Positions 6,028-38,116 of a stretch of DNA of 64,000 nucleotides are shown one piece after another. The position numbers were made by a program, and so were the translations under genes. This DNA is from Bacteroidota bacterium (GTDB lineage Bacteria; Bacteroidota; Bacteroidia; Bacteroidales; Paludibacteraceae): positions 1-64,000 of the forward strand of contig JAUZOL010000002.1 in the NCBI GenBank assembly GCA_030706455.1, read 5' to 3'. The stretch's first letter is position 1. Every line of letters starts with the position of its first letter. The notes beneath the pieces were generated by a model. It saw nothing but the letters and a program-made list of their open reading frames with translations. It ran no database searches and had not been told where the DNA came from.

Positions 6028-6065
6028 CAACAATTTAATCAGGTTATATAGTTATAAAATTCAAA

Positions 6066-6079
6066 GTTTCAGGTTTCAG
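6066..6079. repeat. Tandem heptamer upstream of GH20
   Basis: GTTTCAG occurs twice in perfect tandem, 39 nt before the GH20 start. It belongs to a group of 7/14-bp phased repeats found before several starts in this window. Confidence 0.6.
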
Positions 6080-6097
6080 GCTTGAGGCATAATGCTT

Positions 6098-7300: not shown

Positions 7301-7326
7301 AGTATTCTATTTCGAATTTAAGATTT

Positions 7327-7334
7327 CAAAATTA
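7327..7334 (-). promoter_or_regulatory. Candidate -7 box for the ROK regulator
   Basis: On the - strand the sequence is TAATTTTG, an exact TAnnTTTG match, 27 nt before the ATG. No good -33 TTTG is found at the usual spacing. It overlaps a 14-bp-phased imperfect repeat (7309-7334). Confidence 0.4.
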
Positions 7335-7354
7335 GAGATAATGAGGCAATTATC

Positions 7355-9514
7355 CTATTTTATTACAAACACTTTTTTCAGGAGATATTCTGCCGAGTTT
7401 TTACCAATGCAGAGTGAATACTGTCCGTTGTAAATCTTCCATTTATGGGTTTTCAGATCCCACTTCTGCAGGTCTGCAACAGGAATCGACAGGGTAAATG
7501 TTGAGCTTCCTCCCTTTTCCACCGTCTGTTTTTTGAAGGCTTTCAACTCTTTCAGCGGCATCCGTTCCACGCCCGGATATTCGATATAGGCCTGTAGCAC
7601 TTCATCGGAAGTGTAGTTACCAACATTCTTTACCGTTACGGAAAACTGAATCGAATCTTTTACCGTATATTTTTCTTTGGGCTGTTGAGCCCATTCGTAA
7701 TCAAACTTCGTATAGCTCAATCCGTAACCGAACGGATAAGCCGGAGTTCCTTTGAAATAACGATAGGTGCGCCCCTGCATGGCATAACTGGTAAAATCGG
7801 GCAGATCGTTTACTGATTTATAAAAAGTAAGCGGTAAACGTCCGGAAGGAGAAACTCTGCCAAACAAGATATCGGCAAGTGCATTGCCACCTTGTTCGCC
7901 CGGATACCAGGCAAGAATCATAGCATCGCAATAGGGTTCGATAGTTGTCACGTCAACAGCACTACCGGATGTGACCACCGCAATGATCGGTTTGTTATGA
8001 GCCGCACGAAGCTTCTTCATAAACAAGATCTGAGCTTCAGGCAAACTCAACGTCGTTTTGTCTCCATTTGTTTGTGACAGAAACGCATCACCTTCTTCTC
8101 CTTCGAGCAATGGAGACAACCCGATGACAGCTACGGTCAAATCGCAGCATTGCGAAGCCCAGATACCTCCGAAATGAAGTGTATCGGCATTATCGCAACC
8201 CTGATCGTACTGCACGGCACAGCCCGGTCCGGCAGCCTTGGCTATTCCTTCTGTAAAGGTAACCAAATTCCCATTTATTCCATGATAATTTCCGACCAAA
8301 GCTTCAACAGATGCGCTATTAACCCCGGTAACCAACATCGATGGATACTTCTCTTTGGCTATAGGAAGCACTCCGTTGTTTTTCAGCAGCACCATCGTTT
8401 GCGTGGCCGCTTTACGGGCAAGCGCCATGTGAGCAGCATTATTGATGCTATCCTGACCGTAAGAAGCATATTTATTGAACGGGCTCGAATCAAGCAATCC
8501 AAGCTTCATTTCTGTTTTAAGCGTATTGTACAACGCACTATCTACCGAAGCCGGAGTCAACAGCTTCTGATTGATCGCCTTCATCACATCCTCCTGCAAA
8601 ATATTAGCACAGTCCATGTTAACTCCGGCACGTACGGCAGCAGCTGCCACTTCTACCCGTGTCGGAATAGTTTTATGACGAGCCCAGATATCGTCAAGAG
8701 CCCAGCAGTCGGTTACCACCTGACGGTCAAACTTCCACTCTTTCCGCAGAATATCCTGAAGCAAGGTATTTCCGGTACAACAAGGTTCACCGTTCAACCG
8801 GTTATAACCACACATCACCGACTCGACACCTGCATCGATCAGTTTTTTGAACGCATATAGATATGTCTCACGCAAATCCTTCTCATCGACCACAGCATTG
8901 AAACTATGACGCAATGCCTCAGGACCACTGTGAGCAGCAAAGTGTTTGGCACAAGCCGCCGTTTTCAGAAAATGAGGATCATCGCCCTGCAGGCCCTTGA
9001 TGAAAGCAACTCCCATGTTGGCAGTCAGGAATGGGTCTTCACCATAGGTTTCCTGTCCTCGTCCCCACCTAGGATCACGAAAGATATTGATATTGGGAGT
9101 CCAAAAATTCAGACCCATGTACTGATTATGACGATCCATGGCAATGGCAACGTTGTATTTGGCGCGGCCTTCGGTGGAGATTGCAGAAGCTACCTGATTA
9201 AGCAAGGGCGTATTGAAAGAAGCTGCCATACCGATAGCCTGCGGAAAAACGGTTGCCTCGCCACTACGAGCCAATCCGTGCAAAGCCTCGTTCCACCAGT
9301 TGTAGGCCGGAATTTGCAGTCGATCAATGCCCGGTGATACATAACCGAGTAACGAAATTTTCTCTTCCAACGTAAGTGTTTGCAGCAAATTTTTGATGCG
9401 CTGATCATACGACAACGACGTGTCGCGAAATGGAAATTTAGTCTGAGCAAAACCTGTCTGCGCGAAACAGATTATCAAAAGAATAAAGGTAAACCGCTTA
9501 TTTATTTTTAGCAT
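7355..9514 (-). CDS. GH3 glycoside hydrolase (beta-xylosidase/beta-glucosidase type)
   Basis: A 719-residue exported exo-beta-glycosidase with signal peptide (about 1-23), GH3 N-terminal TIM barrel (about 35-330), GH3 C-terminal alpha/beta domain (about 370-590) and fibronectin-III-like domain (about 630-710). The nucleophile is Asp269 in VVTDCWALDD. The VTDC.A.DD pattern resembles the plant/fungal beta-D-xylosidase branch (VSDCDAVDDI) more than bacterial beta-glucosidases (SDW). In this locus a beta-1,2-xylosidase acting on the xylose of plant complex N-glycans would make sense, since GH3 enzymes with that activity are known from gut Bacteroides. Beta-glucosidase or bifunctional xylosidase/arabinosidase activity remains possible. 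Confidence 0.88.
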   Translation of the reverse strand: MLKINKRFTFILLIICFAQTGFAQTKFPFRDTSLSYDQRIKNLLQTLTLEEKISLLGYVSPGIDRLQIPAYNWWNEALHGLARSGEATVFPQAIGMAASFNTPLLNQVASAISTEGRAKYNVAIAMDRHNQYMGLNFWTPNINIFRDPRWGRGQETYGEDPFLTANMGVAFIKGLQGDDPHFLKTAACAKHFAAHSGPEALRHSFNAVVDEKDLRETYLYAFKKLIDAGVESVMCGYNRLNGEPCCTGNTLLQDILRKEWKFDRQVVTDCWALDDIWARHKTIPTRVEVAAAAVRAGVNMDCANILQEDVMKAINQKLLTPASVDSALYNTLKTEMKLGLLDSSPFNKYASYGQDSINNAAHMALARKAATQTMVLLKNNGVLPIAKEKYPSMLVTGVNSASVEALVGNYHGINGNLVTFTEGIAKAAGPGCAVQYDQGCDNADTLHFGGIWASQCCDLTVAVIGLSPLLEGEEGDAFLSQTNGDKTTLSLPEAQILFMKKLRAAHNKPIIAVVTSGSAVDVTTIEPYCDAMILAWYPGEQGGNALADILFGRVSPSGRLPLTFYKSVNDLPDFTSYAMQGRTYRYFKGTPAYPFGYGLSYTKFDYEWAQQPKEKYTVKDSIQFSVTVKNVGNYTSDEVLQAYIEYPGVERMPLKELKAFKKQTVEKGGSSTFTLSIPVADLQKWDLKTHKWKIYNGQYSLCIGKNSAEYLLKKVFVIK

Positions 9515-9530
9515 ATTGTTTGTTTTTTAC

Positions 9531-9585
9531 CATTAAGAAATTAAGAGCTTTAAGTCGAAACTCAATGCACCTTAATTTCTTAATG
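9531..9585. repeat. 15-bp inverted repeat between GH2 and GH3
   Basis: CATTAAGAAATTAAG at 9531-9545 is exactly complementary to 9571-9585, with a 25-nt loop. It lies in the 105-bp gap between the GH2 stop and the GH3 start. It is AT-rich, so the stem is only moderately stable. It could be a weak terminator or a processing site between the two genes. Confidence 0.5.
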
Positions 9586-9619
9586 TATTAATTTTTAGGT
9601 GCCTCGCAATTGATTTAAA

Positions 9620-12238
9620 TTATTGTACCGATATGGTTTGTTTCTGGACATTCCAACCTTCAACCGTCACTTTACCCTTTTCGGTTCCGTTGTATTCGAG
9701 ACGAATGGTTTTGGAAGTTCCGGGGAGTATGGTTACATAGTTATCGTCGTAAAATACCGGCATCACGCGTTTGCCTGTCGATGGATCAACCATGGAGATA
9801 CGGTTAAAGAAAGCCAGAGGATTACCTGCAGGGTTCTCCATCTTTACTTCGATGGTATTTTCCGATATGCGATGCGCAGAAACAGAAAGATCTGCTTTTT
9901 TCATCTGTTGCAAACCTGTATAATTTCCATTTGCATCGGGCAACCAATAGATATTTTCACTCAAAATAGCCTGTTTTGCATCTACAATTTGCAATTTCAC
10001 AAAAACACCCTTTTCGGCTCTCAACTTATCCATGCTCGGTTTGATGGACAAATATGGCTGCACTGTAGTCGGACTAACTTCCAGCATCAAATTGGTTTCC
10101 GGAGTTTCCTTACCATCAAGATCGAAGTAAGAAATCTTCAACATCACATCGTGGTAAGGATGAAATGTGTTGTTCACAATCATCACCATACCGTCCACCG
10201 GATTGCACATAACATGCAACGGTTCGCTACCACTGCGAAGTCCATACAGACAAGCATTTACATCAAGATAATAGTCGTACATCTGACCGCGAAGCGCTGT
10301 CCACGGATTCTGCGTTTTCCAGATAATGAAGCCGGTGTACCAGTCCCAACTGTGAGCACTGAATCCTTCGGCCAATGCACGATACTGATCATAGTTTACC
10401 AACTGTGCAATATCGCCGAATTCTTTGATATTCTTCGGATTGCCGTAAGGTGCAATCCAGTTGCCATAACCGATATCTTTGTGATAATCCCAAACTGAAT
10501 CGATTTTGTTATTTGCATAATCAGGAACTACCTGATTTTCTTTCGGAAGGAAACGCTCGAGTGATTCGGCATCACCAGTACCTACCGAACCAACTTCCGA
10601 ATTGAATGGGAAGGTACGATAACTCCAGAAAGTTTTCGGATCCTGAATAGAGTACGGGCCATCGCCGTTTCCACCTATCGAGTTGTACGACATTTTATCG
10701 CTATTAGAATAGGGGAAGAAACAACGGGTGCCATCCAGTTTCGGAAGGATAGAATCCTGCAACGGCAGCAAAATATCTGTGGGAGGCGGAATTTCGTTAC
10801 CACCGCACCAGATAGCCAGCGACGCATGGTTGCGGATCATCTTCACCATGTCGGCCATCGATTTGAGCGACAACGCGTGATCGTCCGGATATTTGCGGCG
10901 AGTCCACTGATCTTCGCTCTTCATGGGGTCTACCCAGCGGCCGTTGCAGTCGCCCGAGAACCAAAAGTCCTGGAATACCAGCATTCCGTATTTGTCGCAG
11001 GCTGCATAAAACTCAGGACGTTCAATAATGGCACCTCCCCATATACGAATCAGGTTGAGGTTCATATCGCGGTGGAAACGAATTTCGGCATCGTAACGCT
11101 CGGGAGAGAATCGAAGCATTTCGTCTGAAATAATCCAGTTTCCGCCTTTGATGAATATTTTCTGTCCGTTAACCTCAAACTGCATGCTGCGGGTATGATC
11201 GTTCCATACAGGCGTAATTTCACGCACTCCGATTTTCACATCCGTATCGTCCAGCACTTTTCCATCAGCAGTTACAAAGCGGAATTTCAGATCGTACAAC
11301 GGATGATCGCCATACATGTGCGGCCACCAAAGTTTCGGATTTTTCAACGTAAGATCAGCCAGCTTCACTTCGGTGGTACCGTTTGCGGCTAACACAGCCG
11401 GTTGTTTCACAGTCTGACCGTCGATAGTATATTCCACAGTGCCGCGAATAGCTTTTGGCTGCGGATTTTCTACTTCTACGGTTGCCTTGATAATAGCAGA
11501 TTCCTGAATCTTAGCTTCCGGATCACGTTTGCCCGGCACCAATGTAACAATATGAGGATTGCGCAACACCACACCGTGTGTTTTTTCTATTGTCACCTTG
11601 TCCCAGATGCCGGTGTTACGGTCACGGATAGGTTGAATCCAGTCCCAACCAGCCGTGTACTGATGAGTCAAATTTTTGGCAATGCGGCCGTCACCACCCT
11701 GTCCGCCATTCGGATTGCCCACCGGATCGGGAGGAAACACGATGACTGCCAAACGGTTGTTACCATCTTTTGCCAACAGTGAAGTAATGTTGTACGACTG
11801 GCGAAGTTCCATCCCAAAGTGACGTTCTTTGTTGACACGTTTACCGTTCAGGAAAATATCGCAGGCGTAGTTGACACCCCGCAAATTCAGATAAACCTGA
11901 TCACTGCCGGCCACAGGCATCTCTTTGAACTCTTTTACAAACCAGTAGGTGTAATAATCGCGACCTGTGTAATAGATGTCCTTGATCTTGTTGTTGTTCA
12001 TTCCAAAGAACGGATCTGGCACCTGCTTGTTGTTGAGCATAGTGGTGAGTACGGTACCTGGCACGGTAGCCGGCTGCCAGTCGTTCAACGCATAGCCCGA
12101 CTGACTGAGCTGTTCGCCCGTCACTGATACCTGCTTGATATTTTGACACTGCCAGCCACTTTTCAGTTCGTATTGTTCATGCGCCGAAGCCGTTACGAAG
12201 AGAAAAGCAAGGAGAAAAAGTGAAATTAATTGCTTCAT
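9620..12238 (-). CDS. GH2 beta-mannosidase, similar to mannosylglycoprotein endo-beta-mannosidase
   Basis: An 872-residue exported GH2 enzyme with signal peptide (about 1-19), sugar-binding jelly roll (about 25-210), immunoglobulin-like domain (about 215-325), TIM barrel (about 330-640) and C-terminal beta domains. The acid/base is Glu482 in WCGGNEIPPP and the nucleophile Glu548 in FNSEVGSVG. The second motif resembles plant endo-beta-mannosidase (NPEVGSVG), which cuts the Man-beta-1,4-GlcNAc bond of the N-glycan core; exo-beta-glucosaminidases such as CsxA belong to the same broad clade. It follows three GH92 genes and GH125 and would act once the alpha-mannose arms are trimmed. The ATG at 12238 starts the signal peptide; an upstream GTG would add nine unlikely residues. 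Confidence 0.88.
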   Translation of the reverse strand: MKQLISLFLLAFLFVTASAHEQYELKSGWQCQNIKQVSVTGEQLSQSGYALNDWQPATVPGTVLTTMLNNKQVPDPFFGMNNNKIKDIYYTGRDYYTYWFVKEFKEMPVAGSDQVYLNLRGVNYACDIFLNGKRVNKERHFGMELRQSYNITSLLAKDGNNRLAVIVFPPDPVGNPNGGQGGDGRIAKNLTHQYTAGWDWIQPIRDRNTGIWDKVTIEKTHGVVLRNPHIVTLVPGKRDPEAKIQESAIIKATVEVENPQPKAIRGTVEYTIDGQTVKQPAVLAANGTTEVKLADLTLKNPKLWWPHMYGDHPLYDLKFRFVTADGKVLDDTDVKIGVREITPVWNDHTRSMQFEVNGQKIFIKGGNWIISDEMLRFSPERYDAEIRFHRDMNLNLIRIWGGAIIERPEFYAACDKYGMLVFQDFWFSGDCNGRWVDPMKSEDQWTRRKYPDDHALSLKSMADMVKMIRNHASLAIWCGGNEIPPPTDILLPLQDSILPKLDGTRCFFPYSNSDKMSYNSIGGNGDGPYSIQDPKTFWSYRTFPFNSEVGSVGTGDAESLERFLPKENQVVPDYANNKIDSVWDYHKDIGYGNWIAPYGNPKNIKEFGDIAQLVNYDQYRALAEGFSAHSWDWYTGFIIWKTQNPWTALRGQMYDYYLDVNACLYGLRSGSEPLHVMCNPVDGMVMIVNNTFHPYHDVMLKISYFDLDGKETPETNLMLEVSPTTVQPYLSIKPSMDKLRAEKGVFVKLQIVDAKQAILSENIYWLPDANGNYTGLQQMKKADLSVSAHRISENTIEVKMENPAGNPLAFFNRISMVDPSTGKRVMPVFYDDNYVTILPGTSKTIRLEYNGTEKGKVTVEGWNVQKQTISVQ

Positions 12239-12264
12239 AGGTTTTAAATAAAAATCAATGCACA

Positions 12265-12321
12265 CGGAATACGCTGGTTGTACAGGTATACACGGAGGAT
12301 TCGTGCTTTCAGTGTATTCCG
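12265..12321. repeat. Imperfect hairpin between GH92-A and GH2
   Basis: CGGAATAC (12265-12272) pairs with GTATTCCG (12314-12321) across 41 nt. It fills most of the 95-bp gap after the GH92 stop. No T-run follows on the - strand, so a regulatory or processing role is as likely as termination. Confidence 0.4.
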
Positions 12322-12333
12322 CATGCTTAAAAA

Positions 12334-14589
12334 TTAATATACTTTCGATTGAGGACGATCTTCGGGTTTTGCCCCGAAATTCTTATTTGGTTGGTCTCCC
12401 ATTACAAACTCCAGAGTTCCGCCTGCCATAATTTCCTTGTAAGTGATAAACGAACGGCTATAGGGTCTGCCATTGAGTTTTACCGACTGAATGTAAATGT
12501 TGGTAGCACCTGGTTTACGAACATTGATGGCAAATTTTTTCCCGGCAGGCAAAACAAACGATGCTTTGTCGAACAACGGAGAGCCGAAAACGAAACATCC
12601 GCTGGCAGGATTTACCTGATAGAAGCCGAGCGAAGAAAGAAGATACCAGGCCGACATCTGGCCGCAGTCTTCGTTTCCGCTCAACCCGGCAGGCTTATCG
12701 AAATAACGGTTTTCGAGGATATAGCGAATTTTTTCGGCGGTTTTCCACTGCAGTCCGGCATAAGCATAAAGGTATGCAATGTGATGACTCGGTTCATTCC
12801 CGTGAGCATACTGGCCAATCAAACCGGAGATATCGGGAGACGCGTTGTCGCCCAAATCGCCCTGAACGATAAACAGGCTATCCAGCTTTTGAACGAAAGG
12901 TTTTTCTCCCCCAAAGATCGAGATCAGGCCTTCCACATCCTGCGGAACCAACCAGGTGTATTGCCATGCATTTCCTTCGGTATAATCGCCCCATTCGTGA
13001 ATCGATTTGAAGGGATCGAGAGGTTCGCGAAACTTCCCGTTGTCCAGCTTCGGACGCATAAAGCCTGTTTTCGGATCAAAGTATTCGGTATAAGCTTTTG
13101 CACGTTTGGCATAATATTCATAATCGTTCTGCTTCCCGAGCTTTTGAGCCAATTGAGCTATTGCCCAGTCGGAAAGAGCATATTCGAGCGCTTTGGAAAC
13201 CGACTCTCTTTCCTTATCAGCAGGGATGTAACCTTTGGCTTTGATATAGTTCATCCCGTAGTCGTCGCGCATAGACGAAGCTTTCATTGCTTCCAGCGCC
13301 AACTGCGGATCAATACCTTTGAATCCCTTGAAAATAGCATCAGCAACAACCGGGACTGCCGGATAACCGACCATACAGTCAGTTTCGGAACCCATCAACG
13401 GCCAGATAGGTAATTTACCCTGCTGCTTATAAATTGCCAACATCGATTTCACCATATCTGAAACCCGGCCGGGCTGAATCAATGTATACATCGGCTGACA
13501 TGCACGATAGGTATCCCAAAGAGAAAAAACAGTATAGTTGTTGAAACCCGGATTCTTGTACACATCCTTGTCGGTCCCACGGTAATCGCCGTTATGATCA
13601 TTAAACAAAATAGGAGACGTAAACGTGTGATACAACGCCGTATAAAAAGTACGGAGCTGGTGTTCGTCTTTCGTTTCAACACTCACGCGTCCCAATTCCT
13701 TGTTCCACTTGGCATAGGCATTATCCACTACCTGTTTGAAATTCCAGGCCGGAACTTCAGCCGCGATATTTGCCTGTGCATTTTCCTCGCTCACCGGAGA
13801 AATTCCTATTTTCATCATAATTACTTCACCTTCATCAGTTCTGTAGTTGAGAACTAAAGCAGCTGAATCTCCCTCAACGACATTACCTTCCTGCATGGTT
13901 TTACTATTGAATAACAATGCAGCATCAGCAGGCCGTGACAGTTTTATGGCAAAATAGAGACGCTGATCTTTCGACCACCCAGTTGAAAATCGAGAACCTG
14001 TATATGTAGAAGCGTCTACTTTTTTGATGAATGTTTTCACTGGTCTGTCCCAGCCAATACCCATCGACAGGTTAATGCCGATATGAGCCTCTGTGGATTG
14101 AGGGAAGGTGTATTTGTGAAAAGCCACACGTTCAGTTGCGGTCATTTCTGCGTTAATCAGATATTGCCGGAGGTTGACCGAAAAATAACCGGGCTTTGCA
14201 ATCTCATCTTTATGTGTATATTTGGTTGCCCAGCCAGACAATGGTGCCTTCTCTGTTCCAGGTTCCACCATTACCTTTCCGGTATAAGGCATCACCAGAA
14301 TATCACCCAAATCGCCTATACCTGTACCATTCAGGTGCAACTGCGAAAATCCGGTCAGGATACTGTCGGAATAGTGGTAACCCGAACACCAGTCCCAACC
14401 TTTCACATAGTTAGTAGGGCCTACCTGTACCGCTCCAAACGGCACATGGGCACCCAGAAAAACATGGCCATGATCGCCTGTTCCGATATACGGATCGACA
14501 TACCGCGCAACATCCCGTGTTTGCGCCTTTCCGCTCTGCAATGCTGCAAACAGCAGAATCGTAATAAATAGCAAACTCTTTTTCATCAT
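12334..14589 (-). CDS. GH92 alpha-mannosidase (paralogue A, catalytic residues intact)
   Basis: A 751-residue exported, calcium-dependent exo-alpha-mannosidase with signal peptide (1-22), N-terminal beta-sandwich (about 25-260) and (alpha/alpha)6 barrel (about 280-740). Compared with BT3990 of Bacteroides thetaiotaomicron, the general acid is Glu538 in YTEGNAWQY and the base region is Asn639-Glu640-Asp641 in GNEDCGQMSAW. Asn639 replaces one of the two Asp residues of that motif, which paralogue C keeps. The +1 subsite segment reads HGNEPSHH. GH92 enzymes remove terminal alpha-1,2/1,3/1,4/1,6-mannose, and the linkage cannot be assigned from sequence alone. It starts 56 nt after the second GH92 gene, and the mature N-termini of the two are nearly identical (QTRDVARYVDP), so they are likely a duplication. 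Confidence 0.93.
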   Translation of the reverse strand: MMKKSLLFITILLFAALQSGKAQTRDVARYVDPYIGTGDHGHVFLGAHVPFGAVQVGPTNYVKGWDWCSGYHYSDSILTGFSQLHLNGTGIGDLGDILVMPYTGKVMVEPGTEKAPLSGWATKYTHKDEIAKPGYFSVNLRQYLINAEMTATERVAFHKYTFPQSTEAHIGINLSMGIGWDRPVKTFIKKVDASTYTGSRFSTGWSKDQRLYFAIKLSRPADAALLFNSKTMQEGNVVEGDSAALVLNYRTDEGEVIMMKIGISPVSEENAQANIAAEVPAWNFKQVVDNAYAKWNKELGRVSVETKDEHQLRTFYTALYHTFTSPILFNDHNGDYRGTDKDVYKNPGFNNYTVFSLWDTYRACQPMYTLIQPGRVSDMVKSMLAIYKQQGKLPIWPLMGSETDCMVGYPAVPVVADAIFKGFKGIDPQLALEAMKASSMRDDYGMNYIKAKGYIPADKERESVSKALEYALSDWAIAQLAQKLGKQNDYEYYAKRAKAYTEYFDPKTGFMRPKLDNGKFREPLDPFKSIHEWGDYTEGNAWQYTWLVPQDVEGLISIFGGEKPFVQKLDSLFIVQGDLGDNASPDISGLIGQYAHGNEPSHHIAYLYAYAGLQWKTAEKIRYILENRYFDKPAGLSGNEDCGQMSAWYLLSSLGFYQVNPASGCFVFGSPLFDKASFVLPAGKKFAINVRKPGATNIYIQSVKLNGRPYSRSFITYKEIMAGGTLEFVMGDQPNKNFGAKPEDRPQSKVY

Positions 14590-14644
14590 CTTGTATTTAT
14601 TATGTTTGTTATTAGATGTTTATGATCAATAATTAGCTAAGGGA

Positions 14645-16876
14645 TCAATTAGATTTTCCCATGAAGAATTCCAACACTCCACCCTGCATAATATCACTGT
14701 GTTTCAGTTGCCATCCTTTCAATTCCTCTCCGTTGAGTTTCATTTTACGGACGTAAATATTTTTATCCGATACGTTATGAGCGATAATGGTAAATGTTTT
14801 TCCATTTTCAAGATGCAGCGACACTTTCGGAAACATCGGCGTTCCGATATCGTAAACCGGCTTGCCCGGACAAACAGGATAAAATCCTAATGACGAAAAA
14901 ATATACCAGGCCGACATCTGGCCACAATCTTCGTTGTTCACTACACCGTCAGGCAGCGGCGCATACATCGTATTACGAAGATAAGCAACTATTTTCTGTG
15001 TTTTGGCCGGAGCGCCTGCATAGTTGTAAAGATACGGCACCTGATGACCCGGTTCATCGCCAAAACCGAGAGAGCCCACAAAACCAGATATATCAACATG
15101 CTGCTCGCCAATCATCTTCAGGGTGTCGGTGAAGGTGCGATCCAGTTTCTCTTCAAATGCTTTTTTGCCACCGTAAAGCGAAATCAGTGTATCTACAGCC
15201 TGAGGTGCAAAAAAGTCGTACGCCCAAATATTTCCCGAAATCCAGTGCGGTTGCAGCTTTTTCCAGTCGTTTAGTTCGAATGGAGCCATAAACTGTCCGT
15301 TTTTGTAACGAGGCCAAAAATGTCTCAATTCAGGATTAAACTGGTTGACAAAGGACAGCGAACGTTTCGTATACTCTTTTGCATCGGCGCTCTTTCCCAG
15401 TTTCTGTGCCAGTTGAGCCACACAAAAGTCGTCATAGGCATATTCGAGTGTTTCCGAAACGGAAGCTCCCTGCTCGCAAGGAACGTAGCCCTGACGGATA
15501 TAATCGTGCAATCCGCCGCCACCATTACTGCCACTCATTTTTTCGGTCAACGAAGCATCTTTCATAGTGGCAAAGGCCTTTTCAGGATCGATACCATCAA
15601 CGCCTTTGGAGATAGCATCCCAAATGAGCGAAACGCCGTGGTAGCCTAACATGCAGAAGTTATCGTAGCCACACAGTTCCCAGATCGGAAGGTGATCTTT
15701 ACGGTCGGTATAGCGACTGATCAGTGAGTTGACGAATTCGCGTGTATGTTTTTGATCCACAATAGTCAGCAACGGATGTTCCGCCCGGAAGCCATCCCAG
15801 TAAGAGTAGGTGCTGTAGTTGGTGAACCATTTCGTATTCATATTTTTTTCGGCAGCCACGTAATCACCGTTAACGTCCATGTAAAGGTTGGGAGCAATAA
15901 ACGAGTGGTAAACACTGGTATAGAAGAGTTTTTTCTGTACATCGGTTCCGCCTTCCACCTCAAATTTGGCAAACACCTTGTCCCAGTCGGCACGGGCATT
16001 GGACAAGGCCTTGTCGAAATTGACATTGTCGGCTTCAGCCTTGAAATTGGCTTCTGCTCCTTCAAAACTTACGGGAGACAAAGCCACTTTCACCTCAATT
16101 GCCTCATCTTTGGTAGTGGTAAAACGTACCCATGCTTTAGCATCAGCAGCCACCGCACAGTTGCCGTTCGGAATCATTTTGCCCTGTTCATAAACGCCAT
16201 ACGATGCAAAAGGCTTAGAGAATTCGGCCACGAAATAGGCAAAACGCTTTCCGCCCCACCCTTCACTGTAGCAATATCCTCTGATATGACGGTTATCGAC
16301 AACGTTGACCATAGTATGGAAGGTGCTTCCGAAAATTTTATGCACCGGATCGATGATGATATTGGCTTCGTTGGTTGCCGGGAAGGTATATTTATGAAAA
16401 CCGACCCGCTGCGAAGCTGTAAGTTCGGCATTGACACCATACGTTTTCAGAAAAACCTGATAATATCCCGGTTGTGCCGTTTCGTTCTTATGGCTGAAAT
16501 AAGAACGGTATCCCTCTTCGGAATGCTGCTTGCTACCCGGCTGCATTTTGATTTGCCCGACGGTCGGCATCAGCAATATATCTCCCAAATCGGCCCATCC
16601 GGTACCGCTCAAATGGTTATGACTAAATCCCATCATAGTAGAATCGCTGTAATGGTAACCAGAACACCAATCCCATGCACCGTTCTTGGTATCGCAGTCG
16701 GGACTAAGCTGAATCATTCCGAAGGGAGTAGTAGCTCCCGGAAAGGTATGTCCGTGACCGCCGGTTCCGATAAAGGGATCGACATACCGTGCAACATCTC
16801 TCGTTTGTGCATTACCCCATTGTACTACAACCAGCAACAACGCGGCAACACAAAGCAAACTCCTTTTAATCATCAT
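14645..16876 (-). CDS. GH92 family protein (paralogue B) with Ser in place of the general acid
   Basis: A 743-residue exported GH92 protein with signal peptide (1-23), beta-sandwich and helical barrel as in its neighbours. The base motif is kept (NNEDCGQMSAW, Asp650). The acid motif is not: paralogues A and C read TEGNAW and TEGSAW, while this one reads ISGNIW with Ser547 (codon 15236-15238) at the Glu position. Flanking residues (FNPE, PQ.VDTLISLYGG) align without gaps. In GH92 the known natural loss of the acid (Gln in the Cellulosimicrobium uncapping enzyme, as I recall) goes with hydrolysis of Man-alpha-1-phosphate-6-Man, where phosphate is a good leaving group. This gene may act on mannosyl-phosphate or another activated bond, or may be only a binding protein. 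It lies between GH125 and GH92-A. Confidence 0.88.
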   Translation of the reverse strand: MMIKRSLLCVAALLLVVVQWGNAQTRDVARYVDPFIGTGGHGHTFPGATTPFGMIQLSPDCDTKNGAWDWCSGYHYSDSTMMGFSHNHLSGTGWADLGDILLMPTVGQIKMQPGSKQHSEEGYRSYFSHKNETAQPGYYQVFLKTYGVNAELTASQRVGFHKYTFPATNEANIIIDPVHKIFGSTFHTMVNVVDNRHIRGYCYSEGWGGKRFAYFVAEFSKPFASYGVYEQGKMIPNGNCAVAADAKAWVRFTTTKDEAIEVKVALSPVSFEGAEANFKAEADNVNFDKALSNARADWDKVFAKFEVEGGTDVQKKLFYTSVYHSFIAPNLYMDVNGDYVAAEKNMNTKWFTNYSTYSYWDGFRAEHPLLTIVDQKHTREFVNSLISRYTDRKDHLPIWELCGYDNFCMLGYHGVSLIWDAISKGVDGIDPEKAFATMKDASLTEKMSGSNGGGGLHDYIRQGYVPCEQGASVSETLEYAYDDFCVAQLAQKLGKSADAKEYTKRSLSFVNQFNPELRHFWPRYKNGQFMAPFELNDWKKLQPHWISGNIWAYDFFAPQAVDTLISLYGGKKAFEEKLDRTFTDTLKMIGEQHVDISGFVGSLGFGDEPGHQVPYLYNYAGAPAKTQKIVAYLRNTMYAPLPDGVVNNEDCGQMSAWYIFSSLGFYPVCPGKPVYDIGTPMFPKVSLHLENGKTFTIIAHNVSDKNIYVRKMKLNGEELKGWQLKHSDIMQGGVLEFFMGKSN

Positions 16877-16914
16877 CTTGTGTTTATTGTGTTTTAATTC
16901 GGTCTACGTATTTC

Positions 16915-18366
16915 TCAAGCCGACAAAAGTGCTTTGTGGTCTTTCGCAATTTTGATAATCAGCTCGCCAAACAATGTGTTGGCCCAGGCAAACCACGGAC
17001 GGGTAAACTTAGATGCATCGTCTTTATGGAAAGTTTCGTGCATAAATCCGGTATCAGCATCAGTTGCAACCAACGTTTTCAGGCATTTTCCGATCTCCTG
17101 TTCGTTGGTCGAAGTCAGCGCCTGCATGATAAAACTCATCGGCCAGATCCAGTCGAGACCCACGTGCGGCCCGCCAATACCGGCAGCAGCTTTTCCCGAG
17201 AAATAATAGGGATTGTCGCTGCTCAATACCAAACGGCGGGTATTCTGATATACAGGATCAGTAACCTTGACAAATGAACAAAGATAAGGCAAGCCGAGCA
17301 GGTTGGGTACATTGGCATCATCCATAAATACATGACCACCAAAGCCATCTACCTCGTAAGCATACACTTTCCCGTATTTAGGATGAGTTGCAACGCCATA
17401 TTTATTGACAGCAGCCAACACCTCTTTGGCCAGCGCCGAACATTTAGCTGCAAAGGCCAGATCGCCGGTTATCTTGGTCGAAATTTCGGCCAATTGGTTC
17501 AACGATTCAACCGCAAAAAGGTTCGAAGGAATCAGAAAACTGAACAGCGTTGAGTCGTCTGATGGACGGAAGGAAGAACAAATCAGCCCTACCGGTTTCA
17601 CAGGACTTCCGAAGCCTTTGTTGAGTACCGTATCGCTCTGTTTATCGGTATCGCGGGTAAACGAGTAAGGCGTATCCATCGTCCCGTTTTTACGCTGTTG
17701 TTCTACAAACGTTTCGTAGATGCGTTTAACGGCACTGCGCCAGTCGGCATCAAACATTGCCGTATTGCCGGTCTGTTTCCAGTAATAATACGCCAGACGA
17801 ACAGTATAGCAAAGCGAGTCAATTTCCCACTTGCGTTCGTGCAGCTCGGGAATCATCTTGGTATGGTCTTTATCCCACTCGCTTCCGGTTGCCTCTTTAT
17901 TGAAAGCATTGGCGTACGGATCGAGATTGATGCAATAGCTTTGACGACGGATTATTCCCTCGATCATCAGACTCAGCTGACTATCTTTGGATGCCAGAGG
18001 AAGATAAGGGAATACCTGTGCCGAAGAGTCGCGCAACCACATCGCATGAATATCGCCGGTGATGACAAAGGTATCGGGTTTACCGTTTTTCATAGCAAAT
18101 TCAACGGTCGTATCAAGTGTATTTGGATAGCAGTTTTCGAACATCCAGGCCAGTTTCGGATTTCTGATCTGAGGTTTTATTTTCGCAATCTCCTCTTCCA
18201 CCGCTTTGGAGGTAAAGTTACGTTTAGCAAGCTCCGGACGTTTGCTCACATAGGTTATGCCGGCTGCATCCTTTGAGGACATTGTTCCGGCAAAAAGGGA
18301 ACGGCTCATAGCCAAACCGGCCAATGCAAGGCCTCCCGAACGTAAAAAATCTCTGCGTGAACTCAT
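16915..18366 (-). CDS. GH125 exo-alpha-1,6-mannosidase, Tat-exported
   Basis: A 483-residue protein whose start SSRRDFLRSGGLALAGLA is a twin-arginine (Tat) signal, so it is probably exported folded. The rest is the (alpha/alpha)6 fold of GH125, with the family motif MWLRDSSAQVFPYL near residue 105 and a C-terminal HETFHKDDASKFTRPWFAW segment. GH125 enzymes characterised in Clostridium, Streptococcus and Bacteroides are inverting exo-alpha-1,6-mannosidases acting on N-glycan or yeast-mannan backbones. Placed between two GH92 genes, it would remove the alpha-1,6-mannose that GH92 enzymes often leave. A 10-bp direct repeat phased at 14 bp sits just before the ATG (18369-18392). Confidence 0.93.
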   Translation of the reverse strand: MSSRRDFLRSGGLALAGLAMSRSLFAGTMSSKDAAGITYVSKRPELAKRNFTSKAVEEEIAKIKPQIRNPKLAWMFENCYPNTLDTTVEFAMKNGKPDTFVITGDIHAMWLRDSSAQVFPYLPLASKDSQLSLMIEGIIRRQSYCINLDPYANAFNKEATGSEWDKDHTKMIPELHERKWEIDSLCYTVRLAYYYWKQTGNTAMFDADWRSAVKRIYETFVEQQRKNGTMDTPYSFTRDTDKQSDTVLNKGFGSPVKPVGLICSSFRPSDDSTLFSFLIPSNLFAVESLNQLAEISTKITGDLAFAAKCSALAKEVLAAVNKYGVATHPKYGKVYAYEVDGFGGHVFMDDANVPNLLGLPYLCSFVKVTDPVYQNTRRLVLSSDNPYYFSGKAAAGIGGPHVGLDWIWPMSFIMQALTSTNEQEIGKCLKTLVATDADTGFMHETFHKDDASKFTRPWFAWANTLFGELIIKIAKDHKALLSA

Positions 18367-18368
18367 AA

Positions 18369-18392
18369 ATTAGGTATAAGGGATTAGGTATA
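18369..18392. repeat. 14-bp-phased direct repeat before GH125
   Basis: ATTAGGTATA occurs at 18369-18378 and 18383-18392, two exact 10-mers with a 14-bp period, ending 3 nt from the ATG. Confidence 0.65.
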
Positions 18393-18412
18393 TGGTAAAA
18401 GTAATTTGATAG

Positions 18413-20677
18413 TTATTTCTGATGCTTTGTCAATGACGAAGGTATGTCAGATTCTAAAGTCCCCCGCTTTGTATTGGGAGTGTCACTCATTTGCAGTTTG
18501 AAAGTTCCACCGCCACGTATCTGATCGAATGTCAGATAGTTTTTCGTGAAATTCTTTCCATTCAACGTTGCATTCTGAATATACACATTCTCCTGACTAT
18601 TGTTAGAGGCATCAATAACAAATCGTTTTCCATTTTCGAGTGTTATAGTTGCCTTTTTGAACAATGGACTTCCCAGCGCATATTCGTTGGTTCCGGGACA
18701 AACCGGATAAAAGCCAAGTGCTGAAAAGACATACCATGCCGACATCTGTCCGTTGTCCTCATCGCCGCAATAACCTTTCGAACCGGAGTTGTAGAGTTTG
18801 TCCATCACGTCGCGCAGATGATACTGTGCCCGCCAGGGTTTGTTCAGGTAGTCAAAAAGATAAACCGCATGGTGAATCGGTTCGTTACCATGACCGTACT
18901 GCCCCATGTTGAGCGCGGCCATCTCGGCCATTTCGTGAATCACAAAACCGTAGGTACCCACTTTGAACGTATTCGGAGCCCGAAACATCGAATCGAGCAT
19001 AAAAGCCATTTTCTCATGTCCGCCCATCAACTGCGACAAGCCTTCGGGATCATGCATCGCGCTCCAGTTGTAGTGCCATGCCGAGCCTTCGGTAAAAGGC
19101 CCTCCCCACTCCGTAGCATCGAAAGGACGACGCCACTCACCCTTGGCATTGCGGCCATTCATAAAACCAACCTCCTTGTCGAACACATTGCGATAATTCA
19201 ACGCACGTTTGGCATAGATATCTGCCGTAGCTTTGTCGCCGGTTACTTTTGCCAGCTGATAGATGCACCAGTCGTCATAAGAATATTCCAAAGTACGGGC
19301 CGAAGCCTCGTGATATTCGGGATAAGGCACATAACCCAGTTCGTTGTACTCTTTGAATCCATTACGGCCCACCGTGGAGATCGGACCTTGGTTATTTGTG
19401 GTATGAACCATTGCCTGAAGCGCTTCCTTAGGATCGAATGAACGAATACCCTTCATCCAGGCATCGGTAAGCAACGAAACGGAATTATTGCCCACCATGC
19501 ATTCGCGATGACCCGGACTGGCCCACTCGGGCAGCCAGCCACCTTCGCGATAGGCATTGATAAGAGCCGACGTAATTTCAGCGCTGATATGCGGATAAAC
19601 CAGCGTAAAGAGAGGATGAACGGCACGGAAGGTATCCCAAAAGCCGTTGTCTGTGTACATGTAGCCATCATGGGTTTTGCCATCGTAAGGGCTATAATGC
19701 ACCGTTTTTCCCTGCGCATCCAGTTCGTAAAATTTACGTGGAAAGAGCAAGGTACGGTAGAGACAAGAGTAAAAGGTGGATTCCTGTTCGGCAGTGGCTC
19801 CGCTGATTTCGAGCTTATTCAACAAAGTATTCCACGTCTGTTGTGCTTGGCTCTTAATGCCGTCAAAAGAGGAGGAACCGATTTCACGGTGCAGGTTGAA
19901 CAGTGCTTGTGCATTGCTTATAAACGATGAAGCCGTGCGGATAGTGAGCGCCTTGCCTTTTGTATCGAATTTCAGATAAGCATACAGATGGTCGTCGGAC
20001 GCGCTTTGAGCTTTCGGATATTGTTTGTCGCCATAATAGAGACCATAATCAGCAATCGGCTGATCGAATTCAATAACGATATAATTTGCAAAGTTGGAAG
20101 GAACACCACCGCTGTTGTTTTTGACAAATCCGATAATTTTCCGTCCAGAAGGATCGATCGTAAGACTTCCACCTCCGTTATAGGCATCAATTACAATATA
20201 CTGTTCCGCATTGTCCGGAAAGGAAACACGAAGAGAAGCAGCCCGTTCGGTCGGAGCAATTTCGGTAGTTATCCCGTTATCGAGCTTTACCTTGTAGTAA
20301 TAGGGCTTAGCTATTTCGTTCGCGTGAGTGTAAGCTGCTCCACGCTGCTTGTCCGCAAAAACAGGGCTTCCGACTTCCGGCATGATGGAAAACGTCCCGT
20401 AATCGTTAATCCAGGGACTGGGCTGATGCGTTTGCCGGAATCCACAAATCGTTTTTTGAGCGTAGGAATACATCCATCCGTCACGATTGGCTCCGGTTTG
20501 CGGACTCCAGAAATTCATTCCCCAGGGCATGGCTATAGCGGGATAGGTATTTCCGTAGGAAAAGGCATACGTCGATTCAGTGCCCATCAGGGGATTTACC
20601 TTGTCGGCCGGATTACCAGCAAAAAGCTGGACGCATGTTGTAAAAGCAAGCATGCAAATATAATTTCTAACGTTCAT
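18413..20677 (-). CDS. GH92 alpha-mannosidase (paralogue C)
   Basis: A 754-residue exported GH92 enzyme with a full catalytic set: general acid Glu530 in FTEGSAWHY and Asp639-Glu640-Asp641 in GDEDNGQMSAW, matching the D-E-D of BT3990. Its N-terminus (NPADKVNPLMGTES) and substrate loops differ from paralogues A and B, so it belongs to another branch and probably has another linkage preference; the +1 segment reads HGNEPIHH. Signal peptide about 1-22. The ATG at 20677 is used instead of a TTG four codons earlier. It is the first gene after a 428-bp hairpin-rich gap, and a TAnnTTTG box at 20723-20730 suggests its own promoter for the GH92/GH125/GH2/GH3 block. Confidence 0.93.
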   Translation of the reverse strand: MNVRNYICMLAFTTCVQLFAGNPADKVNPLMGTESTYAFSYGNTYPAIAMPWGMNFWSPQTGANRDGWMYSYAQKTICGFRQTHQPSPWINDYGTFSIMPEVGSPVFADKQRGAAYTHANEIAKPYYYKVKLDNGITTEIAPTERAASLRVSFPDNAEQYIVIDAYNGGGSLTIDPSGRKIIGFVKNNSGGVPSNFANYIVIEFDQPIADYGLYYGDKQYPKAQSASDDHLYAYLKFDTKGKALTIRTASSFISNAQALFNLHREIGSSSFDGIKSQAQQTWNTLLNKLEISGATAEQESTFYSCLYRTLLFPRKFYELDAQGKTVHYSPYDGKTHDGYMYTDNGFWDTFRAVHPLFTLVYPHISAEITSALINAYREGGWLPEWASPGHRECMVGNNSVSLLTDAWMKGIRSFDPKEALQAMVHTTNNQGPISTVGRNGFKEYNELGYVPYPEYHEASARTLEYSYDDWCIYQLAKVTGDKATADIYAKRALNYRNVFDKEVGFMNGRNAKGEWRRPFDATEWGGPFTEGSAWHYNWSAMHDPEGLSQLMGGHEKMAFMLDSMFRAPNTFKVGTYGFVIHEMAEMAALNMGQYGHGNEPIHHAVYLFDYLNKPWRAQYHLRDVMDKLYNSGSKGYCGDEDNGQMSAWYVFSALGFYPVCPGTNEYALGSPLFKKATITLENGKRFVIDASNNSQENVYIQNATLNGKNFTKNYLTFDQIRGGGTFKLQMSDTPNTKRGTLESDIPSSLTKHQK

Positions 20678-21105
20678 TATATTCAACAATTAACATTCAA
20701 ACTCCACGTTTATAATGACCTCCAAATTTAGGCATTCTTCTGGAGACTATATTTTAAAATTTGGCAAAAACGGCAAATAATCATAGTCTTTGGGAACTCA
20801 GAAGTGAGCTAAAAAAGAATAAAAACCGGAAGCGGGCTTTCCCCAAAATTAGCCTGACTAAGACTCTGCAAAGATGAGTTTCGTCATGAAGATTATATTA
20901 ATTACCTTCCGCTTCCGGTTAAACCCAAATTAATCAATAGAAAAATTTATGTTGATTAATCGACGATTTTTGCAGATTTCCTGCAAAAATGTCGGGGTTA
21001 ACCCTGACAAAAATATTATTTTTCGTCAGCCCTTCGGGCAAATTCCGCTATTGCGGAATTTGGGTTAAATCCGTAAAACAGCTACACAATCTTTTGCCTT
21101 ACGGA
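20678..21105. other. Hairpin-rich intergenic region between GH35 and GH92-C
   Basis: This 428-bp gap has no credible gene. It holds at least seven inverted repeats: 20823-20834 with 20908-20919 (12 bp); 20921-20930 with 21057-21066 (10 bp, enclosing the next ones); 20928-20936 with 20952-20960 (9 bp); 20966-20975 with 20981-20990 (10 bp, 5-nt loop); 20991-21008 (7-bp stem, TTAA loop); 21029-21039 (GCCC/GGGC); and 21040-21048 with 21053-21061 (9 bp, TATT loop). A further 9-bp pair, 21068-21076 with 21099-21107, overlaps the GH35 stop. It may end the GH35 transcript, encode a structured RNA, or be a palindromic mobile remnant. Confidence 0.75.
20723..20730 (-). promoter_or_regulatory. Candidate -7 box for GH92-C
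   Basis: On the - strand this reads TAAATTTG, an exact TAnnTTTG match, 46 nt before the ATG at 20677. No clear -33 element is seen at 19-21 nt. The leader between box and ATG carries ATTCAA twice with a 14-bp period (20681-20700). Confidence 0.4.
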
Positions 21106-22962
21106 TTAATTTGAGAGCTTGTCCAGAATAGGTTGCTCTACAGTTTTAATAACAGACGGCGTATTGTCGTTCTGTTGCTCGAAAATTTCTATCTGATTCG
21201 CACCTTTTGTAAGCCAACATCCCGGCAGATACAAGGTTTGCTGAGGCCCTACTTTCCAATAGCGCCCCAAGTTATGCCCATTTACAAAGACAACTCCTTT
21301 TCCCCAGCCACGCATATCCAGAAACATATCACCGGTTTTATCCACATTGAATGAAGAGGAATAAACGGCGGGTAAGCCCGGTTTTGCTGGTACTGTATTG
21401 GCTCCAATTCCAGGTGATTTATCCATTGGAATCTTGTACATTTCCCAGTTACCGGTAATTTCAAAGTCGTTGATTTTCACGGCCGAAATAATTCCCTTGG
21501 TATTGTTGGGAATTTCAGCACCATAGTTGATGCGACCCATATTTTCCACCAGAATATCGAGCCGACCGTTGAATGGAATATTTACCTCCAAATCGAACTG
21601 ATTGTTCTGCCGGTTGAGTTCTCCCACCTTTTTGCCGTTCACATAAACCAACGCATAATCGCGAATACCGGCAATCGTCATTTTCCCGTTCAATGGCTGC
21701 GTAAAGCGTTTGCTATAGAGCACATAGCCACTTCCCTGCCCCAATTGTTCGAACGACATCGGCGTATCGTTGTAAACCGGTTTGATCGATTTTTTCCAAT
21801 CGAACAGATTCATGCTTTTCTCGAATTTGATATCAGGCACGGTTATAACCGGAATACGGGCAGGAATGTCAGGCACCGGATAGTTCACCGATTTCTTCAT
21901 CAACTCACGCAATGCCATGTATTTGGGTGTTGCCCAACCTGCTTCGCTGATAGGCGCATCGTAGTCGTAACTGGTAATATCGGGCTGAATAGCATGCTCT
22001 TCGTTGTAATTTGCACCGGCAGTGAACCCGAAATTGGTTCCGCCATGAATCATATAAAAGCTGAAGCTGATTCCGTTCTGCAGGTATTTCTCTGCCTGCT
22101 TTACAGTCTGGTTGGGTTCGATATGCGTGAAAGGTTCTGCCCAGTGGTCTATCCAACCGGGGTAAAACTCGGCCACCATGTAAGGACCGCCGGGATAGTG
22201 TTTGTCGACACTTTTCTTCAGGTTGGCAATATTATCTTCTCCGTTGGCCGTGGGCAAAACGCCCTCTATAGCGCCGTTGTCAAACAACCAGGAGCCGTCG
22301 GAAGTAAACATCGGGGCATCAAAACCGGCATCTTTCAGCATCTTCATCACCGACAGGTAATACTGGCGATGCTGTTCTCGCGGAATATCCGTTCGTTGCG
22401 ACATGTAAGAGCCAAACTCGTTCTCCACCTGCACCATGATAATCGGACCGCCATGCGTCACCTGCAAATTGCGAACCTGATCGGCCAGCTTGTTCACATA
22501 CACTTTGCATGAATCGAGAAATGGTTGGTTATTGCGGATAGCTATGTCTTTATTGTTCTGCAACCACCACGGATAGCCTCCGAATTCCCACTCGGCACAA
22601 ACATAAGGCCCCGGACGCAAGATCACAAAGAGACCTACTTCCTGAGCGGTCTTTATGTATTGAGCCAAATCGCGGTTCTCCGATTTGAAATCCCAAACGC
22701 CGGGAGCCGTATTGTGATAGTTCCAAAAAACACAGGTCGACACAGCATTCAATCCCATCGCTTTCATCATCTGCATCCGGTGACGCCAGTACTCTTTCGG
22801 TACCCGCGGATAGTGCATTTCTCCTGAATGGATTTGAACTGCTTTCCCGTCATACAAAAATTGCCCGTTGGCAATCTGGAAAGTATGTGTCTTCTTTTGA
22901 GCAAAGCCGACAGAAGCACTGGCCAACACCACGAGTATTAAAATTGTTATTTTCCTCAACAT
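21106..22962 (-). CDS. GH35 beta-galactosidase
   Basis: A 618-residue exported enzyme with signal peptide (1-21), GH35 TIM barrel (about 28-350) and C-terminal jelly-roll domains (about 400-610). The acid/base is Glu182 in QVENEFGSY and the nucleophile Glu265 in MVAEFYPGW. GH35 enzymes release terminal beta-galactose, with beta-1,3- and beta-1,4-linkages both known. Beside two GH29 fucosidases it could remove galactose from Lewis-type antennae (Lewis a in plants, Lewis a/x in animals) once fucose is gone. It lies 22 nt after GH29-B and is probably co-transcribed; the hairpin region follows its stop. A perfect tandem ATAGTTT (22965-22978) lies 3 nt before the ATG. Confidence 0.93.
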   Translation of the reverse strand: MLRKITILILVVLASASVGFAQKKTHTFQIANGQFLYDGKAVQIHSGEMHYPRVPKEYWRHRMQMMKAMGLNAVSTCVFWNYHNTAPGVWDFKSENRDLAQYIKTAQEVGLFVILRPGPYVCAEWEFGGYPWWLQNNKDIAIRNNQPFLDSCKVYVNKLADQVRNLQVTHGGPIIMVQVENEFGSYMSQRTDIPREQHRQYYLSVMKMLKDAGFDAPMFTSDGSWLFDNGAIEGVLPTANGEDNIANLKKSVDKHYPGGPYMVAEFYPGWIDHWAEPFTHIEPNQTVKQAEKYLQNGISFSFYMIHGGTNFGFTAGANYNEEHAIQPDITSYDYDAPISEAGWATPKYMALRELMKKSVNYPVPDIPARIPVITVPDIKFEKSMNLFDWKKSIKPVYNDTPMSFEQLGQGSGYVLYSKRFTQPLNGKMTIAGIRDYALVYVNGKKVGELNRQNNQFDLEVNIPFNGRLDILVENMGRINYGAEIPNNTKGIISAVKINDFEITGNWEMYKIPMDKSPGIGANTVPAKPGLPAVYSSSFNVDKTGDMFLDMRGWGKGVVFVNGHNLGRYWKVGPQQTLYLPGCWLTKGANQIEIFEQQNDNTPSVIKTVEQPILDKLSN

Positions 22963-22964
22963 AA

Positions 22965-22978
22965 ATAGTTTATAGTTT
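22965..22978. repeat. Tandem heptamer upstream of GH35
   Basis: ATAGTTT is repeated twice in tandem (22965-22971 and 22972-22978), directly before the GH35 start. Confidence 0.6.
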
Positions 22979-22984
22979 TGAAAA

Positions 22985-24430: not shown

Positions 24431-24451
24431 TACGGAGGTATTTGATTTTAA

Positions 24452-26329: not shown

Positions 26330-26404
26330 ATCTGATACCGGAAAAACAATATAATTCCGGCAGATACATCAACAACGCGTAAATCAACAGCACCTGTCAT
26401 TCCA

Positions 26405-27832: not shown

Positions 27833-27875
27833 AAATAGTATAATGTAAAAAGCTAATAATCATCTCCTCATTTCA

Positions 27876-29453: not shown

Positions 29454-29462
29454 TGCAGATAA

Positions 29463-32750: not shown

Positions 32751-32777
32751 CGTTTTGGGTTAGTGTAGATTATTAAG

Positions 32778-32785
32778 CAAATATA
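32778..32785 (-). promoter_or_regulatory. Candidate -7 box for SusC1
   Basis: On the - strand this reads TATATTTG, an exact TAnnTTTG match, 28 nt before the SusC1 ATG, predicting a leader of about 20 nt. A -33 TTTG is not apparent, so an activator or an alternative sigma factor may be needed. Confidence 0.5.
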
Positions 32786-33197
32786 GTACGAATACTTTTA
32801 CTTATCTGATCGGGAAGTCGTTTTATTGAATTGCGTTTCCTTTATAATCATCTCGTTTTCACCAACACTCGGTTATCAATATACAACTCATTGAATATCA
32901 ACAGAGATAAAAAACATCTGTTTTTTTACTTAAATAGCCCTTCCGCAAATAAATTGCGAAAGGGCATGAAAATCTATCCTGCATGCTTTTCTTTCTGGCT
33001 ATACTCTCCATCAACACGTCCTCATTACTTTACACACAATCAACAACACATATATGAGGATTCATCAGCACTTTCAATTAGCGAGAAAAATATATTTACC
33101 AACAGATCATACTAGATAAATGATGGGTTATTTGTTCCTAAATCTGTCAGCTATACAATAATAATTCATAGGTTTACGCAGAATAGATATTTAAGAA

Positions 33198-33227
33198 GAG
33201 TACACTCCCATAAAAGGAAGTGCACTC
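33198..33227 (-). terminator. Terminator-like hairpin after SusD2
   Basis: GAGTACACTCC pairs, with G-T wobble and one bulge, with GGAAGTGCACTC across a 6-nt loop. The structure lies 10 nt after the SusD2 stop. The T-run on the - strand is poor (TTCTTAAATA), so termination may be partial, as expected when SusC/D is made in excess of downstream genes. Confidence 0.55.
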
Positions 33228-33236
33228 ATTTTTGAA

Positions 33237-34820: not shown

Positions 34821-34832
34821 ATTCTCAATTTA

Positions 34833-37844: not shown

Positions 37845-37898
37845 ACCTGATAAAAAATTAAAATTAAAAATTGATGTGTGTCGCTCATATTATATGCT

Positions 37899-37939: not shown

Positions 37940-38116
37940 ATAATAATATTCAATAATGTTTAAGCACTGACCTTTTCATCCGTCACATTTTCATCTCTCT
38001 TCACCCTCACATATTCAACCCCTCGCCAAGGTTCCCGAATCTTAAATCCGAGATATAACCTTATTACCTAAAAAAGTATTGAATTTATCTAAGCATATAA
38101 TAGCTGTATGAGACTG

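Follow-up and report, generated by a model that had tools for sequence, protein, structure and literature searches.

The window analysed here, a 64,000-nucleotide stretch of contig JAUZOL010000002.1 from a bacterium of the Paludibacteraceae (Bacteroidota; assembly GCA_030706455.1), encodes at 14645..16876 on its minus strand a glycoside hydrolase family 92 (GH92) protein of 743 amino acids, hereafter paralogue B, that carries serine in the position of the catalytic general acid. The original prediction, made from this sequence alone, had singled out the replacement; we confirm it and find it stronger than the sequence of B by itself could show: judging from the sequences compared, the loss of the acid is old and conserved in one lineage, and it is coupled with two further changes. 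General acids are usually regarded as invariant across a glycoside hydrolase family. GH92 itself is a known family, and a conserved acid-less clade with two coupled changes looks like a new variant of its chemistry. Such a clade would require that the proton donor has moved elsewhere or that the substrate does without one, and either would change how the gene is annotated.

The open reading frame comprises an N-terminal domain (residues 31-267) and a catalytic domain (273-741), and B scores 526 bits with Pfam Glyco_hydro_92 and 299.3 bits with Glyco_hydro_92N (cut-offs 24.6 and 34.5, respectively). Ser547, encoded by TCG at 15236..15238 (minus strand), falls on the acids Glu535 of BT3130 and Glu533 of BT3990 in HMMER sequence alignments, with numbering offsets derived by hand, and Glu occupies this position in BT3130, BT3965, 7zgm, BT3990 and BT2199, the PDB relatives with alignments to B. 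As had been predicted, paralogues A and C keep the acid Glu (YTEGNAW and FTEGSAW, that is, TEGNAW and TEGSAW), whereas B reads WISGNIW (ISGNIW); the flanks, said to be free of gaps, are so downstream of the motif, but the loops just upstream of it are of unequal length in A and B. B has an intact base motif, NNEDCGQMSAW, in which Asn648-Glu649-Asp650 form the NED motif, and the general base Asp650 (14927..14929, minus strand; Asp637 in BT3130, Asp644 in BT3990) is kept in all 156 sequences of the comparison described below. Thus, B is a GH92 protein by homology and, with the base present and the acid absent from its sequence, not a canonical GH92 alpha-mannosidase. The AlphaFold2 model of B (44 sequences) reached a predicted local distance difference test score (pLDDT) of 91.5 and a predicted template modelling score of 0.92, and displays the GH92 architecture of a beta-sandwich plus an (alpha/alpha)6 barrel, with a Foldseek TMq of 0.90 to BT3130. 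According to Foldseek and VIA, the nearest folds were BT3130, BT3965 and 7zgm, and among the matches shown those following the GH92 entries were far weaker.

Ser (19 sequences) or Thr (one) occupies the acid position in 20 of 156 full-length GH92 sequences, a non-random set composed mostly of the closest matches to B and its clade in which no pair is 99% identical. Grouping at 95% identity reduced the 156 sequences to 148 groups, 16 of which belong to the clade. Fragments (L026, L029, L030, L033, L034) and duplicates (L001, L002, L003, L006, L075, L153, L035) had been dropped before counting; L035 is a near-copy of L009 from the same genome (745/756), and L029, which comes from the same genus and shares 54% identity with B, stops short of residue 547. 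A random mutation or a sequencing error is ruled out by the 20 clade members and their 16 groups. The Ser/Thr sequences are monophyletic, with a Shimodaira-Hasegawa-like approximate likelihood ratio test (SH-aLRT) value of 100 and a single change on the tree (17 of its 67 rows), which was built by a quick method after removal of 23 of 90 rows, mostly near-copies. Among close copies the gene is under purifying selection: the ratio of non-synonymous to synonymous divergence (dN/dS) was 0.016-0.034 at dS 0.5-1.8 in seven pairs drawn from Chryseobacterium and two genomes 91-92% identical to C. oleae, values that are rough since dS exceeds 1 in five of the seven. Saturation of dS left no ratio obtainable for B against L063 or for L036 against L038. 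All named clade members come from Bacteroidota, and the clade is, on these alignments, most likely a functional GH92 subfamily so far observed in that phylum alone.

Clade-type genes were found in at least seven of 393 genomes of the order sample, its own genome included, and in at least three of 395 genomes of the phylum sample (its own and two others); for both samples, matches were listed only at E values up to 1e-205. The closest relatives from the order among the matches listed (L036, L037, L038, L007, L039, L040 and L061) share 60-48% identity with B and the motif [IV]SGN[IF]W. In the scan of named genomes, 10 of the best 80 loci out of at least 594 pattern-matching stretches carried Ser or Thr, namely five from Chryseobacterium, two from Alistipes metagenome-assembled genomes (MAGs), one each from Marinifilum and Parapedobacter (the latter with Thr), and one from a Bacteroidetes MAG, which is the gene already listed above as L037. 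The Chryseobacterium copies (L063-L067) are 71-73% identical to B, while own-order copies reach at most 60% among the matches listed, and for the adjoining GH125 and GH92 C proteins the identity between the window and the Chryseobacterium loci is as low as about 55% and 50%. Because the identity of B to Chryseobacterium exceeds that within its own order and the neighbouring genes are less alike, separate acquisition of B by horizontal transfer is possible. The clade gene of Persicobacter psychrovividus (L167) lies on plasmid pPP7 with insertion sequence transposase genes in the same stretch, and the Marinifilum fragile member (L070:9992-13006) sits within a frame of 1005 amino acids, about 260 residues longer than B, with a GH47 gene alongside. 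Elsewhere in the genome of B (G000:C288 12500-17400; L004, L005), two more tandem GH92 genes both encode Glu at the acid position.

The coupling of the acid loss to other residues is near-perfect. In a comparison with 72 other sequences, three columns separated the clade without exception, with Ser/Thr547 in place of Glu, Asp607 (15056..15058, minus strand) in place of Asn, and Asn647 (14936..14938, minus strand), three residues ahead of the base, in place of Gly. Across all 156 sequences the triads at 547-607-647 were Glu-Asn-Gly in 135, Ser-Asp-Asn in 19, Thr-Asp-Asn in one and Glu-Asp-Gly in one (L165); hence, Asp607 and Asn647 are present in 20/20 clade members, whereas the other GH92 proteins have Asn (135/136) or Asp (1) at the first position and Gly (136/136) at the second. 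The relative on Persicobacter psychrovividus pPP7, obtained after the triad had been defined, carries it as well, and six distant actinobacterial GH92 proteins do not match it. This three-residue signature offers a direct handle on the clade, whose Persicobacter copy is annotated just as 'GH92 family glycosyl hydrolase'.

Further residues set the clade apart: His593 (15098..15100, minus strand; 20/20 versus 3/136 in the others), aligned with His581 in the 580-loop on the aglycone side of BT3130, Arg388 (15713..15715, minus strand; 20/20 versus 1/136), near the end of the helix running into the Trp399/Cys408/Met409 loop, Lys446 in a clade-typical loop insertion (15539..15541, minus strand; 19/20 versus 0/136), Trp538 (20/20 versus 3/136), Phe599 (20/20 versus 1/136), Ser448 (19/20 versus 4/136) and Trp70. 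D405/N406 were rejected as clade markers, BT3130 likewise having QDN there. Asp361, Trp399, Met409 and Glu608 are kept in 20/20 members. Based on helix ends in the DSSP assignment of the model, Arg388, Trp538, His593, Phe599, Lys446 and Ser448 are predicted to lie on or next to loops of the active-site face, and Trp538, His593, Arg388 and Lys446 would lie in or near the aglycone-side loops. In the literature, the +1 subsite is described as shaped by the loop before the acid in 7zgm (PMC9522356; located here by hand numbering) and by the 580-loop (PMC5930347).

Paralogue B belongs to an N-glycan utilisation locus that extends over 3757..40217 on the minus strand, from a GH20 gene to an extracytoplasmic function (ECF) sigma factor, in the order GH20, ROK, GH3, GH2, GH92 A, GH92 B, GH125, GH92 C, GH35, GH29, BT_1020-like, GH29, two SusD/SusC pairs, FecR and ECF sigma. 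GH92 A (12334..14589), with the normal acid Glu and a NED base motif, and GH92 C (18413..20689), with the normal acid Glu and a DED base motif, share the strand of B, as does the GH125 alpha-mannosidase directly upstream of it (16915..18366), an adjacency also seen in Chryseobacterium. As GH3, GH35, GH29, GH20, GH2, GH92 and GH125 genes occur together (compare PMC9522356), the locus would appear to serve complex, possibly plant-type, N-glycans. It also contains, at 24452-26329, a BT_1020-like beta-propeller protein with a sialidase-like carbohydrate-binding module domain. Beyond it, the minus strand of 42338-63282 encodes an ADP-ribosylglycohydrolase, a PfkB kinase, a DUF4434 protein, a flavin adenine dinucleotide (FAD) oxidoreductase, a GH2 protein, a metallophosphoesterase and a NAGLU protein.

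For clade members elsewhere, 14 settings were compared, comprising the window, Chryseobacterium (counted once), L068, L069, L070, L072, L075, L143-L148 and L167; the fragment L149, where a GH3-like gene and DUF2961 occur, is not among them. In Chryseobacterium the order is SusC-SusD-MFS (major facilitator superfamily)-GH130-B-GH125-GH18-type (one or two copies)-ROK-GH92 C-type, where the MFS, GH130, GH18 and ROK identifications come from Pfam for L063 and were extended to L064-L067 on the strength of a shared arrangement and N-terminal sequences; in L064 a gene resembling mannose-6-phosphate isomerase follows the clade locus. N-glycan or alpha-mannose partners occur in five of the 14 settings, that is, in the window, in Chryseobacterium, in L070 (GH47), in L146 (GH20-like, Asparaginase_2 and GH2-like) and in L147 (two GH92, MFS and GH130). 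The Asparaginase_2 protein (L146:12410-13456), a possible aspartylglucosaminidase, has the GH20-like gene, the clade GH92 and a sulfatase near it. The member in L145 is accompanied by a GH29 protein and two sulfatases; in L069 there are a SusD, a GH120-like protein and a weak match to SusC, in L144 an adjoining GHL10-type protein, and in L143 a weak GH20 match about 6 kb away.

In our tentative reading, B is a subfamily enzyme that takes part in N-glycan breakdown, where it would act on a terminal alpha-mannoside as an inverting hydrolase and draw on a rebuilt, non-glutamate proton donor; we give this reading a little less than an even chance, and the activity, the substrate and the donor are what we infer in it. 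Replacement of the acid Glu by Ser or Thr is coupled with the changes Asn607 to Asp and Gly647 to Asn at the catalytic centre, and B retains its base (Asp650), the residues for mannose binding (Asp361, Trp399 and Met409) and Glu608. The proton for the leaving group would then come from the candidate donors His593 and/or Asp607, and Ser547 might position the leaving-group oxygen or a water molecule. Since the base and the residues holding mannose in the -1 subsite are kept, B presumably still turns over a mannoside, and a rebuilt donor is favoured over an easy leaving group because the gene context is that of ordinary N-glycans.

Several observations weigh against this reading. His593 and Asp607 are candidate donors by sequence, their reach to the scissile oxygen being a prediction only. 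BT3130 already has a His at the position of His593, which lies in a segment (residues 591-600) that is weaker in the AlphaFold2 model (pLDDT 69), and Asp607 could instead adjust Ca2+ binding. Moreover, L165 combines the normal acid Glu with Asp at the 607 column, lacking Arg388, His593 and Asn647, so that Glu can persist alongside Asp607 and an absolute coupling of Asp607 with the acid loss has to be rejected. E591 as a relocated acid was likewise discarded: the first eight clade members have Glu or Asp there, L068 has Gly and L070 has Ser. Engineered precedent is unfavourable as well: acid variants are inactive in AnGH92A and of residual activity in BT3990 and NnGH92 (PMC12858847, PMC10167667). 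Finally, no glycan partner was seen in L068, L072, L075, L148 or L167, where the neighbours were partly scanned.

A rebuilt donor would be superfluous if the clade cleaved mannose from an activated or anionic aglycone such as phosphate, sulfate or uronate, which would need little help from a proton; Arg388, Lys446 and Ser448 would then bind the charge. Such chemistry would permit an enzyme to keep its base and lose its acid, and it fits the clade-specific Arg388 and Lys446 on or next to the putative active-site-face loops, the sulfatases nearby in two of the 14 settings (L145, L146) and the precedent of CcMan5, whose substrate is Man-PO4-Man according to PMC5930347. Yet no phosphatase was present among the 30 neighbouring proteins scanned around clade members, which are a part of all neighbours; three neighbour sulfatases gave weak secondary matches to PF01663, and the sole annotation of a phosphatase concerns a protein phosphatase of SpoIIE type, a signalling kind, near the Persicobacter member. 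The remoteness of B from CcMan5 in sequence and the ordinary N-glycan gene context also speak against this alternative, which we consider unlikely, if the least so of those weighed here. The original prediction had suggested a mannosyl-phosphate or otherwise unusual activity, with the metallophosphoesterase at 57552 supplying a later step. It is fair to expect something unusual in activity or mechanism, because the acid Glu is absent, its loss is old and conserved, and shared clade residues are placed at the catalytic centre and in or near the presumed aglycone loops; the mannosyl-phosphate link, possible as a substrate for B, receives no positive support from kinship or context. The metallophosphoesterase lies past the FecR/ECF sigma, CutC and permease genes in another cluster, among GH2, DUF4434, NAGLU and FAD oxidoreductase genes, and its position and neighbours led us to reject a link to B. 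A more specific and rather unlikely version has the clade abandon its glutamate acid and acquire, in Arg388, Lys446 and Ser448, an aglycone site for anions. Its substrate would be a charged conjugate of alpha-mannose on eukaryotic N-glycans, from which mannose would be freed without an enzyme acid, Asp607 and Asn647 re-tuning the Ca2+/water site; if true, that conjugate would be a bacterial food source so far undescribed.

It is also rather unlikely that B lacks catalysis and, as a mannose-binding pseudo-enzyme, helps to capture or present N-glycans or else regulates paralogues A and C. The lost acid and the poor activity of the acid variants mentioned above would suit such a role, but the base Asp in 20/20 members together with two new polar residues nearby is unlike the decay of a dead site, and the whole-gene dN/dS is very low, though compatible with any function.

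A changed glycone or linkage, in which Ser547, Asp607 and Asn647 reshape the -1 subsite for a non-mannose sugar or a sterically special core mannose and leave the acid step aside, is improbable. Two of the triad positions are the acid itself and the residue three positions from the base, and Trp70, Trp538 and Phe599 might contribute to such a change; however, the -1 contacts Asp353, Trp390 and Met400 of BT3130 persist, by hand mapping, as Asp361, Trp399 and Met409 in all 20 members. We regard it as very unlikely that B is an ordinary weak alpha-mannosidase in which water or buffer protonates via Ser547 and slow turnover suffices in vivo, as this leaves the coupled Asp607/Asn647 and the loop residues unexplained. 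Acid loss as a step to phosphorolysis is rejected, since phosphorylases of the inverting (alpha/alpha)6 type as a rule dispense with the base and retain the acid, the opposite of what B shows.

Among known systems, CcMan5 (CcGH92; 2xsg, 4aq0) of Cellulosimicrobium, a Man-PO4-Man hydrolase, has the GH92 fold in common with B and is what we take to be a natural case of an altered acid, with Gln for Glu. Its sequence is remote from B (184-185 bits, compared with 584 for BT3130, 527 for BT3965 and 490 for 7zgm), and its VIA Z of 37.7 is the lowest of the GH92 entries compared. Beyond CcMan5, no report of an acid-less GH92 member was found among the entries listed by a literature search that was thin on subscription journals, nor in passages of PMC10154615, PMC9723552, PMC10269736 and PMC2815779. 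For a rebuilt proton donor as we favour it in B, analogy, and analogy only, is offered by the unrelated families GH117 and GH3 (NagZ), in which His with Asp replaces the carboxylate acid; PMC11574756 describes such a His/Asp general-acid dyad in inverting GH117 and names GH3 NagZ and GH156 as similar.

Closer to B stands 7zgm (B035DRAFT_03340), a GH92 alpha-1,3-mannosidase of plant N-glycans that gave the highest VIA Z (52.5; 687 residues aligned, root-mean-square deviation 1.9) and resembles B in its NDD base motif and plant N-glycan setting. It differs in its acid Glu (TEGNAW) and in the loop before the acid, which in 7zgm contains H530/E532/S533 (hand numbering), proposed in PMC9522356 to bind the +1 mannose. 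The NED motif is reported for GH92 alpha-1,3-mannosidases (PMC12858847), and B carries the NED/NDD motif of the BT3130/7zgm alpha-1,3 group in its sequence. The best PDB relative of B is the GH92 protein BT3130 of Bacteroides thetaiotaomicron (6f8z), first by bit score and also by Foldseek, with the TMq given above. The two are alike in the base, the Cys/Met loop, Trp67 and the 580-loop His, and they part, by hand numbering, at Glu535/Asn594/Gly634 of BT3130, where B has Ser547/Asp607/Asn647.
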